From assembly GCA_028281945.1 (NCBI GenBank), contig JANQIW010000031.1:20177-84176 (forward strand): DNA of 64,000 bases, written 5' to 3'. Shown piece by piece: positions 8,757 to 59,532 of the stretch. Position 1 is the stretch's first letter; every line of letters begins with the position of its first letter. The position numbers and the translations under genes are program-made. The DNA comes from Prochloraceae cyanobacterium PL24a_bin.78. Its GTDB lineage: Bacteria; Cyanobacteriota; Cyanobacteriia; Cyanobacteriales; JANQIW01. The notes under the pieces were generated by a model that saw only the letters and a program-made list of their open reading frames with translations, did no database searches and had not been told where the DNA came from.

Positions 8757-10925
8757 ATGATAAGGTTAACTTTTATGGTTAACTTGGAAATATCTGATTT
8801 ATTTGGGCTAATGTATAAGTTGCAACCAAACATACAATCAATTTCTAAATTGAGGTTACTAATCCTAGCAGCCTCAATAGATCAAGAGATCATATCTATT
8901 ATCAAAATCCTTCAAGAAGCAAATATTTGCTTTAATTATGAAATAGCCCCAGTTGATAATTCCGTATTATTGTTGAAAAGTAATACTTATGATGCAATTT
9001 TATTAAAAGATCCAGATTTTCTTGTTTGGTTGCATCAATATCAAAAAAAAATTCCCTTAATTTTGATTTTGCGGGCTGAAAATTGGGATAGTCAGTTAGA
9101 AAATCTTAAGTCTGAAAACATCAATTATGTTGATAAAAATAGCTTATCTCTTCTACCAACTATTCTCAAACGCTGCCTAAAATTAGCTCAAATTCAGGAA
9201 GATCAAAAACATCAGCTTCTGATGAGACGCATGAGTCAACTAATGCAAGAAACTCTTGTTTTGGAAGAATTACTCCAAAGTATGGTGGATATGATCCACG
9301 AAGCCTTAGGAGTTTATGGTTGTTTAATTTTTCGTTTTTATCCAGATAGCAAACGAAGAATTTGGTATGCTTCCAATGATACCGATGCTTCTTCAAATCT
9401 AGTTAATTTGTGTTGCGAAATATCTAATTATAATCATTATTTATTATTACAAGGAAAGCCTTTAGTTTGTAATCAGGTTAGAGATTGTTTAGAATCTCAA
9501 CTTTTAGAAACAGCTCTAAAAAATAAGGTGAGTTCTTTTGTTTTAAGACCTTTAATCTATCAAAATTCATATTGTGGCGAAATCTGGATTCATTGTCAAA
9601 ATAACCATCAATGGAGTGACAATGAATTAACTACAATTCATACTATAGCTACTCAATCTGCAATGGCTATTTCTAAAGCTCAATTATATCATAAACTTCA
9701 ACAACAAAAACAGAAAGAAAAATTACAACGTCAACTGACTCAGAAAATTAATTCTAATCTTAATTCCCAGCAAATTCTAGAAGCAATTCTTCAGGAAATA
9801 GGGGAAAAATTTAGATTCCATCGGGTAATTCTTTTTAGTCTTGGCAATGAAAATATTGAAATTAAGCAACAATGGCTCATTGATAATCAAATACCTTCTT
9901 TAAAGCTTAAAACCCCAATATCATCAGAGTTAAGGGAGTTAAAAGAATTAAAAGAAATCAATATTTTAGATGAAAATTTATCTGAAAAAATAACAGAAAA
10001 TATCAAAAAAGTAATTGACGGATTACCATTAGAATCTCTCTTAACAGTACCAATATTACTACATAAAAAACTCTTTGGTATTTTAGTATTAGAAACCAAT
10101 ATTGAAACTAAAACTATTACAGAAGATGATCTCGATTTACTATCTGCAATTGCTGAACAAATATCTTTAGCAATTCATTTTGAAGAATTAGTAAAATCTC
10201 GCACTCAAGAATTAGAAAAAGAAAAAAAACGCATTGAAAATGCTAATCGTGCTAAAAGTGAATTTCTCTCCCATATGAATCATGAATTACGTACCCCGTT
10301 AACAGCAATTATGGGTTTTTCGAGAATGTTGAAACAAGAATTATATGGGGAATTAAATGCTAAACAAATGCAATATGTAAGCGCAATTTGTGACTCAGGA
10401 GAGCATCTTTTAGAATTGATTAATGATTTACTTGATATTTCTAAAATAGAAGCAGAAAGAGAAGAACTTTATCTAGAAAAATTTCCTGTGGAAGAAGTTT
10501 GTTTAGCTTCTATGTGTTTAGTAGAAGAAAAAGCAAGACAACAAGGATTAGAATTGATTTTAGATATCTCTGAAGAAGTTAGTTTTTGTATGGCAGATCG
10601 TCGGAGATTGAAACAAATATTGGTAAATTTATTGTCTAATGCTGTAAAATTTACTGAAGAAGGTTCTGTAACTTTAAAGGTGGAAATAGGAGAAAAAATG
10701 CTGGAGTTTTCTGTAATAGATACTGGAATTGGTATTAAAGAAGATGATTGCAAAAAACTTTTTCAACCCTTTTCTCAGATTAACAATCATTTGACTCGGA
10801 AACACAAAGGCACTGGTTTAGGATTGGCTTTATCTCTAAAATTAGCAAGACTTCATGGAGGAGATCTTACTTTAAAATCTAATTATACTCAAGGTAGTTG
10901 TTTTACAGTTTATTTACCTCTTTAA
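8757..10925 (+). CDS. sensor histidine kinase: pseudo-receiver-like N-terminus, two GAF domains, HisKA, HATPase
   Basis: H-box FLSHMNHELRTPLTAIMGF, N-box QILVNLLSNAVKFT, G1 VIDTGIGI, G2 KGTGLGLALS; GAF-like repeats. Confidence 0.88.
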   Translation: MIRLTFMVNLEISDLFGLMYKLQPNIQSISKLRLLILAASIDQEIISIIKILQEANICFNYEIAPVDNSVLLLKSNTYDAILLKDPDFLVWLHQYQKKIPLILILRAENWDSQLENLKSENINYVDKNSLSLLPTILKRCLKLAQIQEDQKHQLLMRRMSQLMQETLVLEELLQSMVDMIHEALGVYGCLIFRFYPDSKRRIWYASNDTDASSNLVNLCCEISNYNHYLLLQGKPLVCNQVRDCLESQLLETALKNKVSSFVLRPLIYQNSYCGEIWIHCQNNHQWSDNELTTIHTIATQSAMAISKAQLYHKLQQQKQKEKLQRQLTQKINSNLNSQQILEAILQEIGEKFRFHRVILFSLGNENIEIKQQWLIDNQIPSLKLKTPISSELRELKELKEINILDENLSEKITENIKKVIDGLPLESLLTVPILLHKKLFGILVLETNIETKTITEDDLDLLSAIAEQISLAIHFEELVKSRTQELEKEKKRIENANRAKSEFLSHMNHELRTPLTAIMGFSRMLKQELYGELNAKQMQYVSAICDSGEHLLELINDLLDISKIEAEREELYLEKFPVEEVCLASMCLVEEKARQQGLELILDISEEVSFCMADRRRLKQILVNLLSNAVKFTEEGSVTLKVEIGEKMLEFSVIDTGIGIKEDDCKKLFQPFSQINNHLTRKHKGTGLGLALSLKLARLHGGDLTLKSNYTQGSCFTVYLPL

Positions 10926-11082
10926 ATCAATTTGTTGACAAATAATTCCATAATTACAAAAGACTTAGAATTAAAAACTTAGAAATAGAAAATCTCTGGA
11001 TTTGTCTTCTATTTGAGAACATAATTTGATATTATAAAAACTCAAATCAAAAAATTAGTTGTTCAAATCTATTATTAATATC

Positions 11083-11895
11083 ATGATTCAAGAAAAATTA
11101 GCACAATTAAAAAGTTTATTTGCCCAAATGGATCGAGCTTTAATTGCTTATTCTGGAGGTATTGATAGCACTTTAGTCGCCAAAATCGCCTACGATGTTT
11201 TAGGGGATAAAGCATTAGCAATTACGGCGGTTTCTCCTTCTTTATTGCCAGAAGATTTAGAAGATGCTAAAACTCAAGCCATCACTATCGGTATTCCTCA
11301 CGAGTTGATTCAAACTCACGAAATGGATAATCCTAATTATACTTCTAATCCTGTGAATCGCTGTTATTTCTGCAAAAGTGAGCTTCATGATACTCTCAAA
11401 CCAATTGCTATTCAAAGGGGTTATCCCTATGTGGTTGATGGGGTTAATGCTGATGATTTACACGATTATCGCCCCGGCATTCAAGCAGCAAAAGAAAGAG
11501 GCGCGCGATCGCCTTTAGCTGAGGTTGGAGTCACTAAAGCTGAAGTTAGAGAAATGTCTCAGTTATTAGGTTTACCTTGGTGGAATAAGCCTTCTCAGCC
11601 TTGTTTGAGTTCCCGTTTTCCTTATGGTGAAGAGATAACTGTAGATAAATTACAAAAGGTTGGTCGTGCTGAGGTATATTTGCGAAAGTTAGGATGGAAT
11701 AATCTTCGGGTTCGATGCCATGAGAATACTGCTCGAATTGAATTACCTCCTGAAAAAATCAAGGATTTTGTCGCTAGTGTTGATTTAAATGCTTTAGTAT
11801 CTGCTTTTCAAGAGTATGGTTTTGTTTACGTGACTCTTGATTTAGAAGGTTATCGCAGTGGGAAGCTCAATGAAGTATTGAATTTATCTGTTTAG
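11083..11895 (+). CDS. larE: ATP-dependent sacrificial sulfur transferase LarE
   Basis: PP-loop AYSGGIDSTLVAK; NRCYFCKSEL; PCLSSRFPYG; ATG at 11083 preferred over the TTG used in the ORF track. Confidence 0.88.
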   Translation: MIQEKLAQLKSLFAQMDRALIAYSGGIDSTLVAKIAYDVLGDKALAITAVSPSLLPEDLEDAKTQAITIGIPHELIQTHEMDNPNYTSNPVNRCYFCKSELHDTLKPIAIQRGYPYVVDGVNADDLHDYRPGIQAAKERGARSPLAEVGVTKAEVREMSQLLGLPWWNKPSQPCLSSRFPYGEEITVDKLQKVGRAEVYLRKLGWNNLRVRCHENTARIELPPEKIKDFVASVDLNALVSAFQEYGFVYVTLDLEGYRSGKLNEVLNLSV

Positions 11896-49185: not shown

Positions 49186-50361
49186 ATGGCTAAGACAGTA
49201 TTAGAGCAACTTCGGGAATATACGATCGTAGTAGCAGATACCGGAGATATTAATGCAATTCAACAATATACCCCTCGTGATGCTACAACTAACCCTTCCC
49301 TAATTACAGCAGCAGCACAAATGCCTGAATATCAGGAAATTGTGGATGAAACTTTAAAACAGGCAAGACAAGAAAAAGGAGCCAGCGCATCGGCAAATGA
49401 AGTGGCAACATTGGCTTTCAATAACCTAGCGGTTGCTTTTGGGAAAAAGATTCTAGAAATTATTCCTGGGCGGGTTTCTACTGAGGTAGATGCCAGATTA
49501 TCTTATGATACTGAAGCAACTCTTGTTACTGCAAGAAATATTATTCAACAGTATGAAGCAGCAGGAATCTCTAAAGATCGCATTTTGATCAAGATTGCTT
49601 CTACTTGGGAAGGTATTAAAGCAGCTGAAGTATTAGAAAAAGAAGGAATTCACTGTAATTTAACTCTTTTATTTGGACTTCATCAGGCAATTGCTTGTGC
49701 AGAAGCGGGAATTACTCTAATTTCTCCTTTCGTAGGAAGAATTTTAGATTGGTATAAGAAGGATACTGGTAGAGAAAGTTATCCTTCTAACGAAGATCCA
49801 GGAGTTGTTTCTGTAACTACAATTTATAACTATTACAAAAAATTTGGTTATAATACTGAGGTAATGGGTGCAAGTTTCCGCAACACTGGTGAAATTAAAG
49901 AATTAGCTGGTTCCGATTTATTAACTATTTCTCCTAAGATTTTAGCTCAATTACAATCTGAAGAGGAAGAATTACCTCGGAAGTTATCCCCTGAAACTGC
50001 TGCTAAGAGTGATGTGGAAAAAATAAATGTGGATAAAGCTACATTTGATAAAATGCACGCAGAAAATAGAATGGCTAGTGAGAAGTTAGACGAAGGTATT
50101 AAAGGATTCTCTAAAGCTTTAGAAGCCTTAGAAGAACTTTTAAAGAATCGTTTAGCATATCTTGAAGGCCAAGGAAAAATCGATGCTGGTACGGCAGAAA
50201 TTTTCAATGCCTATGATTTCGATGGGGATGGATTTATCACTCGTGAAGAGTGGGCAGGCACAGATGCTGTTTTTGATGCCCTTGATGTTAATCATGATGG
50301 TAAGGTTAGTGCTGAGGAAATTGCTGCTGGTTTAGGTGCTGCGGCTGTGCCTTTGAGATAA
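49186..50361 (+). CDS. tal: transaldolase with C-terminal EF-hand pair
   Basis: [60 protein letters not shown]-hand loops [12 protein letters not shown] and [12 protein letters not shown]. Confidence 0.96.
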
Positions 50362-50547
50362 TTTTTGACTGAGTATTTGGGTGGATTTATTATCTAAATT
50401 TACACTTTTGAATTTGTTTTTTATAGTTATTTTTAGGTATCAGGGTAATAAAGATTAAAATTTTTATTGAAACCTTGATATCTTTTTTTTATTTTGATTT
50501 CTAAAAATTATTCATTGTATGAATATCTATTAATACTAATCAAGTAA

Positions 50548-50623
50548 TTCTTCCCATTCTTCCCATTCTTCCCATTCTTCCCACTCTCCCCATCTCCCAT
50601 TCACCCATTCCCCCATTCTTCCC
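50548..50623 (+). repeat. CCCATTCTT-type pyrimidine-rich tandem repeat upstream of lasso cyclase
   Basis: ttcttcccattcttcccattcttcccattcttcccactctccccatctcccattcacccattcccccattcttccc. Confidence 0.85.
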
Positions 50624-50633
50624 AAATTATATT

Positions 50634-52544
50634 ATGAATGCAATCTCCTTAACAGTTAATTGGGATGGCAAACCCATCGAAAAAACCCTTTTAGAAAAAA
50701 TCAATACAAGTGTCAAATATCGCACCCCTGATGGAAGCTGGTATTGGTTAAATAATCACATAGGCATAACCCAATCAGATTTAGCCACCTTGCCTGAAGA
50801 TACTCCCGGAGTTGCAGTATATACAAAAGATATCCGAATTGCCGCCAGTTGCAGAATCGATAATCGAGAAGAAATAAAATCCACCTTACCAACAGAATAT
50901 TTTCCTAAAACCAAAAGCGATACTGCATTTATCTTAGCAGCATATCAAGCATGGGGAGAAGATTGTATCCATCATCTAATAGGAGATTTTGCCTTTATAA
51001 TTTGGGATAACCGTAATAAAACTATATTTGCCGCAAGAGATCCATCAGGAGTTAGAAGTTTATATTATTTTGTTAATAAAGAAAAGTTAATTATCGCCTC
51101 AGAAATAATCCAAATTTTCCAAAATAAAACTATAAAAAAAGAAATAGATGAAGAGCAAATAATCGAATATCTTACCCCTATTTACCAGTATTCAAGTGGT
51201 TGGGATTTAGGTTACTTTAAAAATTTACAAGCATTACCAGCAGGACATATTTTATTAGCAAAATACGGCAAAATAATTATCAAAAAATATTGGTATTGGC
51301 AAGAGAAAACACTTAATTACAATAATCAACAAGAGATTTTAGAGGAATATTATTTAACCCTAGAAGAAGCAGTAAGATGTCGTTTAAGAAGTAAGGTAAA
51401 AATAGGTTTAGAATTAAGTGGTGGTTTAGATTCTTCTGCTGTTGCGGCTATAGCAGGAAAGTTATCTATGGATTCTAATCGACAGCTTCATACCTTATCG
51501 ATGATTTTTAATTTGGTTAAAGAAAGTGATGAAAGAGAAAGAATTAAAAAAGTAAGAGAATTATATCCTTATATTTCCCATCAATTTGTTGCTGACGAAT
51601 TTTATACACCTTTATGCTTTAAAGAAGATTGGAATCCTCGTAGTATTATGGGAATTCAAGAAATAATGATACGCCCTTTATTTGATTTTTATCAAAAAAT
51701 AGAAACTACAGGATGCCAAGTAGTATTAAGTGGCCATTTAGGAGATGCCTTGAATTATGGAAGCGATGCCGTTTATTTTGACTTATTAAAAAGAGGTTGT
51801 TTCACCCAAACATGGAAATGGTTTCAAACCATAGCAAAATTTTCTCCAAAACAAGCCTTAAAGCAATTATTCTTAGATGGTTTAGTGCCAATGATGCCCT
51901 TGGGATTACTTCAAGCAAGATTATTAATGAGAGAAAAAAAGCGAAGCCAAAATGCTATAAATAATTTACCTGATTATTTTACTTCCGATTTACGAGCAAA
52001 AATCATCGAAAAAGATCGAGAAATTAGGATTAAAAGAATTGAAGACAATCAAATACGTTGCCCTGTGGTACGATCGACTTTAGAAAGAATATCTCCACCT
52101 TTTGTTACCCTCACCACTCCCATACCTCAACCAATCGAAAGACGACATCCATATACTGATAGAAGATTGATAGAATTAGTCTTAGCAATGCCCAAAGAAT
52201 TATTATGGGAAAAAGAAAAACAAGGAATCTTAAATGCCGGGCGTTTTCATCACCGCCAAATCATGGAAAAAATTCTACCAAAAGAAATTATAGTTAACAA
52301 TATAGGGGTATACTTTGATCCAGTTGTTAAACATTGTATGACACCAAAATTAATGGGAGATTGGCTATCTAGGAGTAAAAATACCGAAATTTTTGAGAGA
52401 GGTTACGTTATTCCCAAAAATTTTTGCCAAGAAATAGAAAAAACTACTCATCCTTTCCAAAATTATATTATGATAATGTTGACTCTGGAGGGATGGCTGT
52501 GTAGCCTTACTCCCGGAGGAAAAATGAATCAATTAATTCCTTAA
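50634..52544 (+). CDS. asparagine synthetase-like protein, probable lasso peptide macrolactam cyclase
   Basis: Degenerate GATase-II N-terminus (no Cys2) IAASCRIDNREEIKS..DTAFILAAYQAWGEDCIHHLIGDFAFIIWDNRNKTIFAARDPSGVRSLYYF; PP-loop LELSGGLDSSAVAAIAG; followed by a lasso-type precursor ORF. Confidence 0.85.
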   Translation: MNAISLTVNWDGKPIEKTLLEKINTSVKYRTPDGSWYWLNNHIGITQSDLATLPEDTPGVAVYTKDIRIAASCRIDNREEIKSTLPTEYFPKTKSDTAFILAAYQAWGEDCIHHLIGDFAFIIWDNRNKTIFAARDPSGVRSLYYFVNKEKLIIASEIIQIFQNKTIKKEIDEEQIIEYLTPIYQYSSGWDLGYFKNLQALPAGHILLAKYGKIIIKKYWYWQEKTLNYNNQQEILEEYYLTLEEAVRCRLRSKVKIGLELSGGLDSSAVAAIAGKLSMDSNRQLHTLSMIFNLVKESDERERIKKVRELYPYISHQFVADEFYTPLCFKEDWNPRSIMGIQEIMIRPLFDFYQKIETTGCQVVLSGHLGDALNYGSDAVYFDLLKRGCFTQTWKWFQTIAKFSPKQALKQLFLDGLVPMMPLGLLQARLLMREKKRSQNAINNLPDYFTSDLRAKIIEKDREIRIKRIEDNQIRCPVVRSTLERISPPFVTLTTPIPQPIERRHPYTDRRLIELVLAMPKELLWEKEKQGILNAGRFHHRQIMEKILPKEIIVNNIGVYFDPVVKHCMTPKLMGDWLSRSKNTEIFERGYVIPKNFCQEIEKTTHPFQNYIMIMLTLEGWLCSLTPGGKMNQLIP

Positions 52545-52569
52545 ATTTTGACAAGTTAAACATAAACAA

Positions 52570-52704
52570 ATGAAAGAAACAAATAAAAAGAAAAAAAAGT
52601 ATAACCATCCCGAACTTCGGAAATTTGGTAAAGTGGAACAAATTACTTTTGGTGGTGGATCCGTACTTCCTTTGGATGCAACTTTAACAAAAAGACCTTC
52701 TTAA
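52570..52704 (+). CDS. probable lasso peptide precursor (44 aa), absent from the supplied ORF track
   Basis: MKETNKKKKKYNHPELRKFGKVEQITF|GGGSVLPLDATLTKRPS; leader matches YxxPxLxxxGxxxxxTx; core has Gly1 and Asp9 for a 9-residue macrolactam. Confidence 0.82.
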   Translation: MKETNKKKKKYNHPELRKFGKVEQITFGGGSVLPLDATLTKRPS

Positions 52705-53289: not shown

Positions 53290-53787
53290 TTAACTCTTAG
53301 AATCAGGTTTAATCCACATTAGAGTTTGACCATATTCTACAGGTTGACCATTTTCGATAACAATTTCCATAACTTCACCAGAAACTTCAGCTTCAATTTC
53401 ATTCATTAACTTCATTGCTTCAATAATACAAACAGTTTGACCCACACTAATACGATGGCCAACTTCAACAAAAGGATCTTCTTGAGGAGCCGGAGCACGA
53501 TAAAAAGTTCCTACCATTGGAGAAGTAATTTCTAACCATTTTTTTTGTGCAGGTGTAGAAGGTGGGGAAGTTTCAGGGGCAGTGGGAGTTGTTGAAGTTT
53601 GAGATGGTACTAAATTCGTTTCAGAAGTAGTTACTTCAGTAATTGTAGAACCAACATTTTGTTTCATTCCATCACTTTTTTTCTGGAAAGTCAGTTCAAA
53701 CTCTTCACTTTTTAAAGTTAACTCCGTAATTTCGGTATTAGCTATTGCCACTAAAAAATCACGAAGTTGGTTAAGATCTATTGACAC
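53290..53787 (-). CDS. accB: acetyl-CoA carboxylase biotin carboxyl carrier protein
   Basis: [56 protein letters not shown]. Confidence 0.97.
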
Positions 53788-58618: not shown

Positions 58619-58657
58619 GAGAATGGGAAGAATAGGGAGAATGGGGAGAATGGTAAG
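58619..58657 (+). repeat. GAATGGGAAG-type purine repeat (reverse-complement orientation of the CCCATTC family)
   Basis: gagaatgggaagaatagggagaatggggagaatggtaag. Confidence 0.75.
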
Positions 58658-59439: not shown

Positions 59440-59532
59440 TTCTCCCCATTCTCCCCATTCTCCCCATTCTTCCCATTCTCCCCACTCTCCCAACTCTCCC
59501 CACTCTTCCCATTCTCCCCACTCTTCCCATTC
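59440..59532 (+). repeat. CTCCCCATT-type tandem repeat
   Basis: ctccccattctccccattctccccattcttcccattctccccactctcccaactctccccactcttcccattctccccactcttcccattc. Confidence 0.88.

Follow-up and report, generated by a model that had tools for sequence, protein, structure and literature searches.

The genome of Prochloraceae cyanobacterium PL24a_bin.78 comprises 4.63 Mb in 176 contigs. The stretch analyzed here, 64,000 nt corresponding to bases 20177–84176 of contig C89 and referred to below as the window, carries two neighboring forward-strand ORFs where a sequence-only reading had placed them: one of 636 codons with no internal stops (50634–52544), encoding an asparagine-synthetase-like homolog of the lasso-type cyclases (C protein, 636 aa), and one encoding a 44 aa lasso precursor (A; 52570–52704), which begins 25 nt past the cyclase stop. 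The pair lies among housekeeping genes, flanked by a transaldolase gene (49186–50361) and, on the minus strand, a biotin carrier protein gene (53290–53787). No dedicated export transporter, tailoring gene, B gene, or further lasso gene was seen near it. Neither RNA families near the pair nor an intrinsic terminator at the locus were found, and promoter-like sites there are about as numerous as expected by chance.

The transaldolase bears EF-hand motifs at its C terminus (Pfam TAL_FSA with EF hands). The window also has short arrays in which 9-base units (ATTCTTCCC, GAGAATGGG, TTCTCCCCA) repeat in tandem, at 50547–50624, 58619–58653, and 59440–59532, the first of them directly upstream of the cyclase gene. 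Runs of CTTCCCAAGT type resembling them are found (L037, 15400–17700) on another contig of the same genome, C170, downstream of the B2 gene described below.

The precursor peptide

The leader (MKETNKKKKKYNHPELRKFGKVEQITF, 27 aa, 52570–52650) has the motif Y-x2-P-x-L-x3-G-x5-T, with Y11, P14, L16, G20, and T26 all present as claimed and the Thr at position -2. In an alignment with 19 other cyanobacterial leaders, Y11, P14, G20, and T26 are invariant. The Thr in the penultimate leader position is known as the recognition residue (PMC10368454). The Phe at -1 is unusual, and is also found in another cyanobacterial precursor set (L156). The core that had been read from the sequence, GGGSVLPLDATLTKRPS (52651–52701), does have Gly in its first position (G28) and Asp in its ninth (D36); a Gly1–Asp9 macrolactam is predicted from these, with an [M+H]+ of 1650.917 for the lasso form. 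Among precursor-like ORFs, position 9 is where acidic core residues are most frequent (31 of the 77 from the loci read, the window's included).

Profile searches uphold the assignment of the 44 aa ORF to the lasso precursor class. NCBIfam lasso_cyano (NF033528) matches residues 8–26 (E 1.7e-4; 21.5 bits, under its cut-off of 33) and has no other match in the genome; a second model, which included the window sequence, likewise finds a single precursor. An independent HMM, built from the 19 other cyanobacterial leaders with the window sequence excluded, yields this ORF as its single match in the six-frame translated window (E 1.8e-9; the runner-up has E 0.75), and the strict leader motif occurs once in the real window vs. 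~0.017 times per shuffled window. The match is therefore not a matter of chance, and a chance ORF downstream of the cyclase is ruled out.

Class and divergence of the cyclase

Model scores, the second residue, and phylogeny agree with the proposal that the neighboring gene encodes a lasso-type cyclase, and rule out AsnB. The best model for it is lass_lactam_cya (NF033535), at 318.7 bits, under the cut-off of 525; AsnB models score it lower (192 and 122 bits), and a profile of relatives at 313 bits. Its second residue is Asn; at this position AsnB carries Cys2, and the precursor-linked cyclases (34 of 34) carry Ser2. In a tree of 67 proteins, it groups with the lasso-type cyclases on a branch with SH-aLRT 100, and E. 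coli AsnB and synthetases of the Cys2 type fall outside. The protein does match Pfam Asn_synthase, and is the only full Asn_synthase protein in the genome, as would suit an ordinary asparagine synthetase followed by an accidental ORF. That explanation is nonetheless scarcely credible, given the missing Cys2 nucleophile, the higher score with NF033535 than with the AsnB models, the separation in the tree, the leader-profile match of the precursor, and the loss (see below) of a Lys that AsnB itself requires. Judged by sequence, these two genes form a genuine lasso-type locus, neither a chance association nor AsnB, with a lasso peptide as the predicted product.

The cyclase is a long way from its relatives. 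Its end branch measures ~2 substitutions per site (2.4 when other long rows are left out), which is too long to fix an exact sister. A grouping with the cyclases of L043, L044, and L046, which stand beside similar cores, is not rejected by the AU test (p 0.16). The N-terminal domain retains a fraction of 0.53 of the positions that relatives conserve, compared to at least 0.64 in the full-length cyclases from the two main lasso clades of cyanobacteria; for the synthetase domain (C-domain) the fraction is 0.64, inside the range seen in other lasso cyclases. The gene has an ordinary reading frame and codon-position composition, in a genome of 33% GC. No close ortholog of the A–C pair for testing selection was found, the best identity being about 30–35%. 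A scan of contigs from other genomes gave a distant Novosphingobium locus as its sole match, and in a plasmid search all among the matches listed were under 26% identity.

Of the catalytic residues of the synthetase domain that mark members of a lasso system, the ATP-binding PP-loop SGGLDSS (residues 262–268; 51417–51437, forward strand) is intact and Asp371 is kept, and the R-x(1,2)-K motif is lost. The motif reads N-N-I-G, with I557-G558 (52302–52307, forward strand) at the site of a Lys present in 66 of the 67 aligned proteins, this one being the sole exception. Lys466 of human ASNS is in contact with the phosphate of the acyl-adenylate and has been called essential in AS-B (PMC6748925); as assigned from the alignment, it is the Lys of this motif. 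A frameshift was considered as the cause of the loss and rejected: the ORF is continuous, and the other frames, inspected by eye, have no such motif. Misalignment was likewise rejected, MAFFT fixing the region between the anchors LPxE (upstream) and F-x-P (downstream). A tblastn comparison with genome G010 (see below) put a gap at the motif region, and in this alternative alignment the Lys is still unmatched.

With the conserved Lys gone, another residue would have to assume its role, and Lys566 and Lys572, near the lost motif in sequence, are candidate substitutes. A lasso pathway with helper proteins supplied in trans, in which the cyclase closes the ring without the family's Lys, by another residue or another chemistry, is possible, if on the whole doubtful.

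The cyclase might instead have been repurposed, for another product (with no ring, or with some other bond) or as a non-catalytic partner, in which case the peptide released by B1 and B2 would be linear or otherwise modified. The N-terminal domain and the Lys motif have changed most, while the precursor and a large part of the synthetase domain stay conserved, a pattern that such repurposing could produce. The core nevertheless keeps the Gly1 and Asp9 that a macrolactam requires, and the literature searched yielded no precedent; we regard this explanation as rather improbable.

B1 and B2 on a second contig

The genome has one PqqD protein over cut-off (B1; C170:14750–14950) and one Transglut_core3 protein (B2; match at C170:15117–15410), encoded on C170 by overlapping genes of 93 and 156 aa, respectively. 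B2 scores 83.6 bits with NF033537, above the lasso B2 cut-off of 33, and the protease Cys and His are conserved in its alignment. B1 has its best matches to lasso PqqD models, but under their cut-offs. C170 carries no cyclase or precursor, and no cyclase remnants were found beside its B2; GC content is similar on the two contigs (0.335 and 0.324). Both helpers are thus encoded in the genome, but A, B, and C genes are not clustered: B1 and B2 are absent from the window locus, and their sole copies are side by side on C170, so the pathway is split. With the genome 94% complete, a second B1 or B2 could be missing from it. The earlier description of the window as a lasso locus therefore holds for the precursor and the lasso-type cyclase, and has to be qualified for the rest: the B1 and B2 genes are on another contig, and the cyclase has diverged and lost its catalytic Lys motif.

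The B1–B2 pair on C170 adjoins leuA. A genome from another family, G010, matches this contig in leuA (81–96% identity), an NYN-type gene (92%), and a rhodanese gene (54%), and has the order leuA, B1, B2, kinase-like ORF, methyltransferase-like ORF, cyclase, then, on the opposite strand, a precursor-like ORF (NYN, rhodanese, kinase, and methyltransferase being assignments made by eye). By this synteny, B1–B2 on C170 occupy the position of a lasso cluster whose own C and A are gone. The G010 cyclase is not a close relative of the window's A–C pair. The lasso-type cluster beside leuA in G010 (L165, 3947–9059) has its cyclase in two overlapping frames. The B2 of the window genome falls in a B2 clade of 32 rows (SH-aLRT 99), and for most members of this clade no cyclase lies within 1.5 kb. 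Among the genomes drawn as relatives, none belongs to the host's family or genus.

A decaying lasso locus could present a similar picture. Cyclase catalysis would have been lost, leaving A–C as a remnant, and B1–B2 on C170 would be left from another, lost cluster. The missing catalytic Lys and accelerated divergence of the cyclase point in this direction, as do the disappearance without trace of the C and A expected beside B1–B2 from the G010 synteny and the lack of tailoring or export genes. Decay is harder to reconcile with 636 stop-free codons of ordinary codon-position composition in a genome of such low GC, with a PP-loop and other catalytic-domain residues that are kept (C-domain retention being inside the lasso cyclase range), or with a leader, core Gly1 and Asp9, B1, and B2 that are all intact. 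It seems unlikely, while still deserving serious consideration.

The most likely reading is a divergent cyanobacterial lasso pathway distributed over two loci, with A and C in the window and B1–B2 acting in trans from C170; the main competing reading is a lasso locus in which the cyclase has become inactive or been repurposed. We consider the split pathway probable, although not strongly so. In its favor are the presence of A, C, B1, and B2 in one copy each, the G010 synteny, and a comparable split in genome G087 (see below); against it are the lost Lys motif, the very long cyclase branch, low N-domain retention, and a score under the NF033535 cut-off.

It is normal for B1 and B2 to be separate, and B proteins that were split artificially function as separate proteins (PMC5067487). 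As both are diffusible, their linkage to A–C could in principle be dispensed with. The sequences show that the genes are present, intact, homologous to lasso genes, and single-copy; from this, for such a split pathway, we infer cleavage, cyclization, threading, and cooperation of the two loci along the following lines. B1, a PqqD-like recognition element, would bind the YxxPxL...G...T leader and pass it to B2, the leader protease, which would cut after Thr26-Phe27; C would activate Asp9 by adenylation and link it to the Gly1 amino group, closing a ring of nine residues that the tail ATLTKRPS would thread. Of these steps, the doubtful one is the adenylation, by a cyclase that lacks the usual Lys.

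Split arrangements and other lasso systems

The small ORF was expected to be conserved beside related cyclases, and such precursors are indeed found there, some with the same core type. The cores GGKDGEQLDASFPVNTPKGKLTFS (G047), GVGKGESLDKDF... (G229), and KTKVGTKLDASF... (G085), which adjoin three of the four cyclases that match best beyond the window's own genome, have an x8-Asp-Ala/Lys pattern in common with the window core.

The 391 genomes of the order contain 72 cyclases with E <= 1e-40; a B2 lies within 5 kb of 50 of these cyclases, and the other 22 have none at that distance. For 14 of the 22, B2 is only on another contig, which in draft genomes is possibly an assembly effect; some of the genomes concerned have B2 beside another cyclase. 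In G087, which is closed (two contigs) and has one B2, A–C and B1–B2 are 2.36 Mb apart. G121 has B1-C-A apart from B2, and G104 has a cyclase apart from B2.

Several further arrangements were seen in these genomes. The G087 loci are L177 and L131, and SVAIRGNLDGAGPRAVPNRTI-like cores recur in related genomes (L170, L176, L178). In L103 (G015; 10356–11538), one cyclase is followed by five tandem lasso precursor ORFs with similar cores. Five genomes have, in one neighborhood, B1, B2, and one or two precursors (YSEPELKAHGKISGLTQQVGGSGGF...) with no cyclase detected (L134, L153, L159, L162, L163); this core has no Asp or Glu at positions 7–9, and may therefore represent a different peptide class sharing the lasso helpers.

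Lasso mining generally targets contiguous A-B-C clusters. In the present genome, as in several other cyanobacteria that were checked, B1/B2 are unlinked from A–C, so that mining of this kind can easily overlook such loci or score them as incomplete. Should a single B1–B2 pair serve distant A–C loci, recognition of the leader in trans could be put to the test; a cyclase lacking the usual Lys would test the true requirements of the lasso-forming step.

Contiguous cyanobacterial lasso clusters have been described (PMC9332814, PMC9967302). No description of a split arrangement was found in the open literature searched, which covers genome mining incompletely and does not establish absence. Compared to cyanobacterial lasso systems as represented by NF033528, NF033535, and NF033537, the present one is alike in its leader motif, a precursor directly beside the cyclase, a Gly1/Asp9 core, a cyclase without Cys2, and one B1 and one B2 per genome; it differs in that A–C is unlinked from B1–B2, cyclase and precursor score under the curated cut-offs, and the Lys motif is lost. 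E. coli AsnB has the same domain layout and a PP-loop, but also Cys2 and an essential Lys, neither of which the window protein has. The complete clusters of G047 and G229 (L121 and L119, in the order B1-B2-C-A) include cyclases among the best-matching ones and cores of the window's type (GGKDGEQLDASF... and GVGKGESLDKDF...) with an acid at position 9, but are contiguous, with longer tails and an intact R-x(2)-K motif. The split systems, G087 and in part G121, G104, and G025, resemble the window system in having A–C (or A–C–B1, or C) far from B1–B2 (or B2); their aligned cyclases, however, retain the Lys motif, and that of G087 is of another type, near the cyclase of G042.
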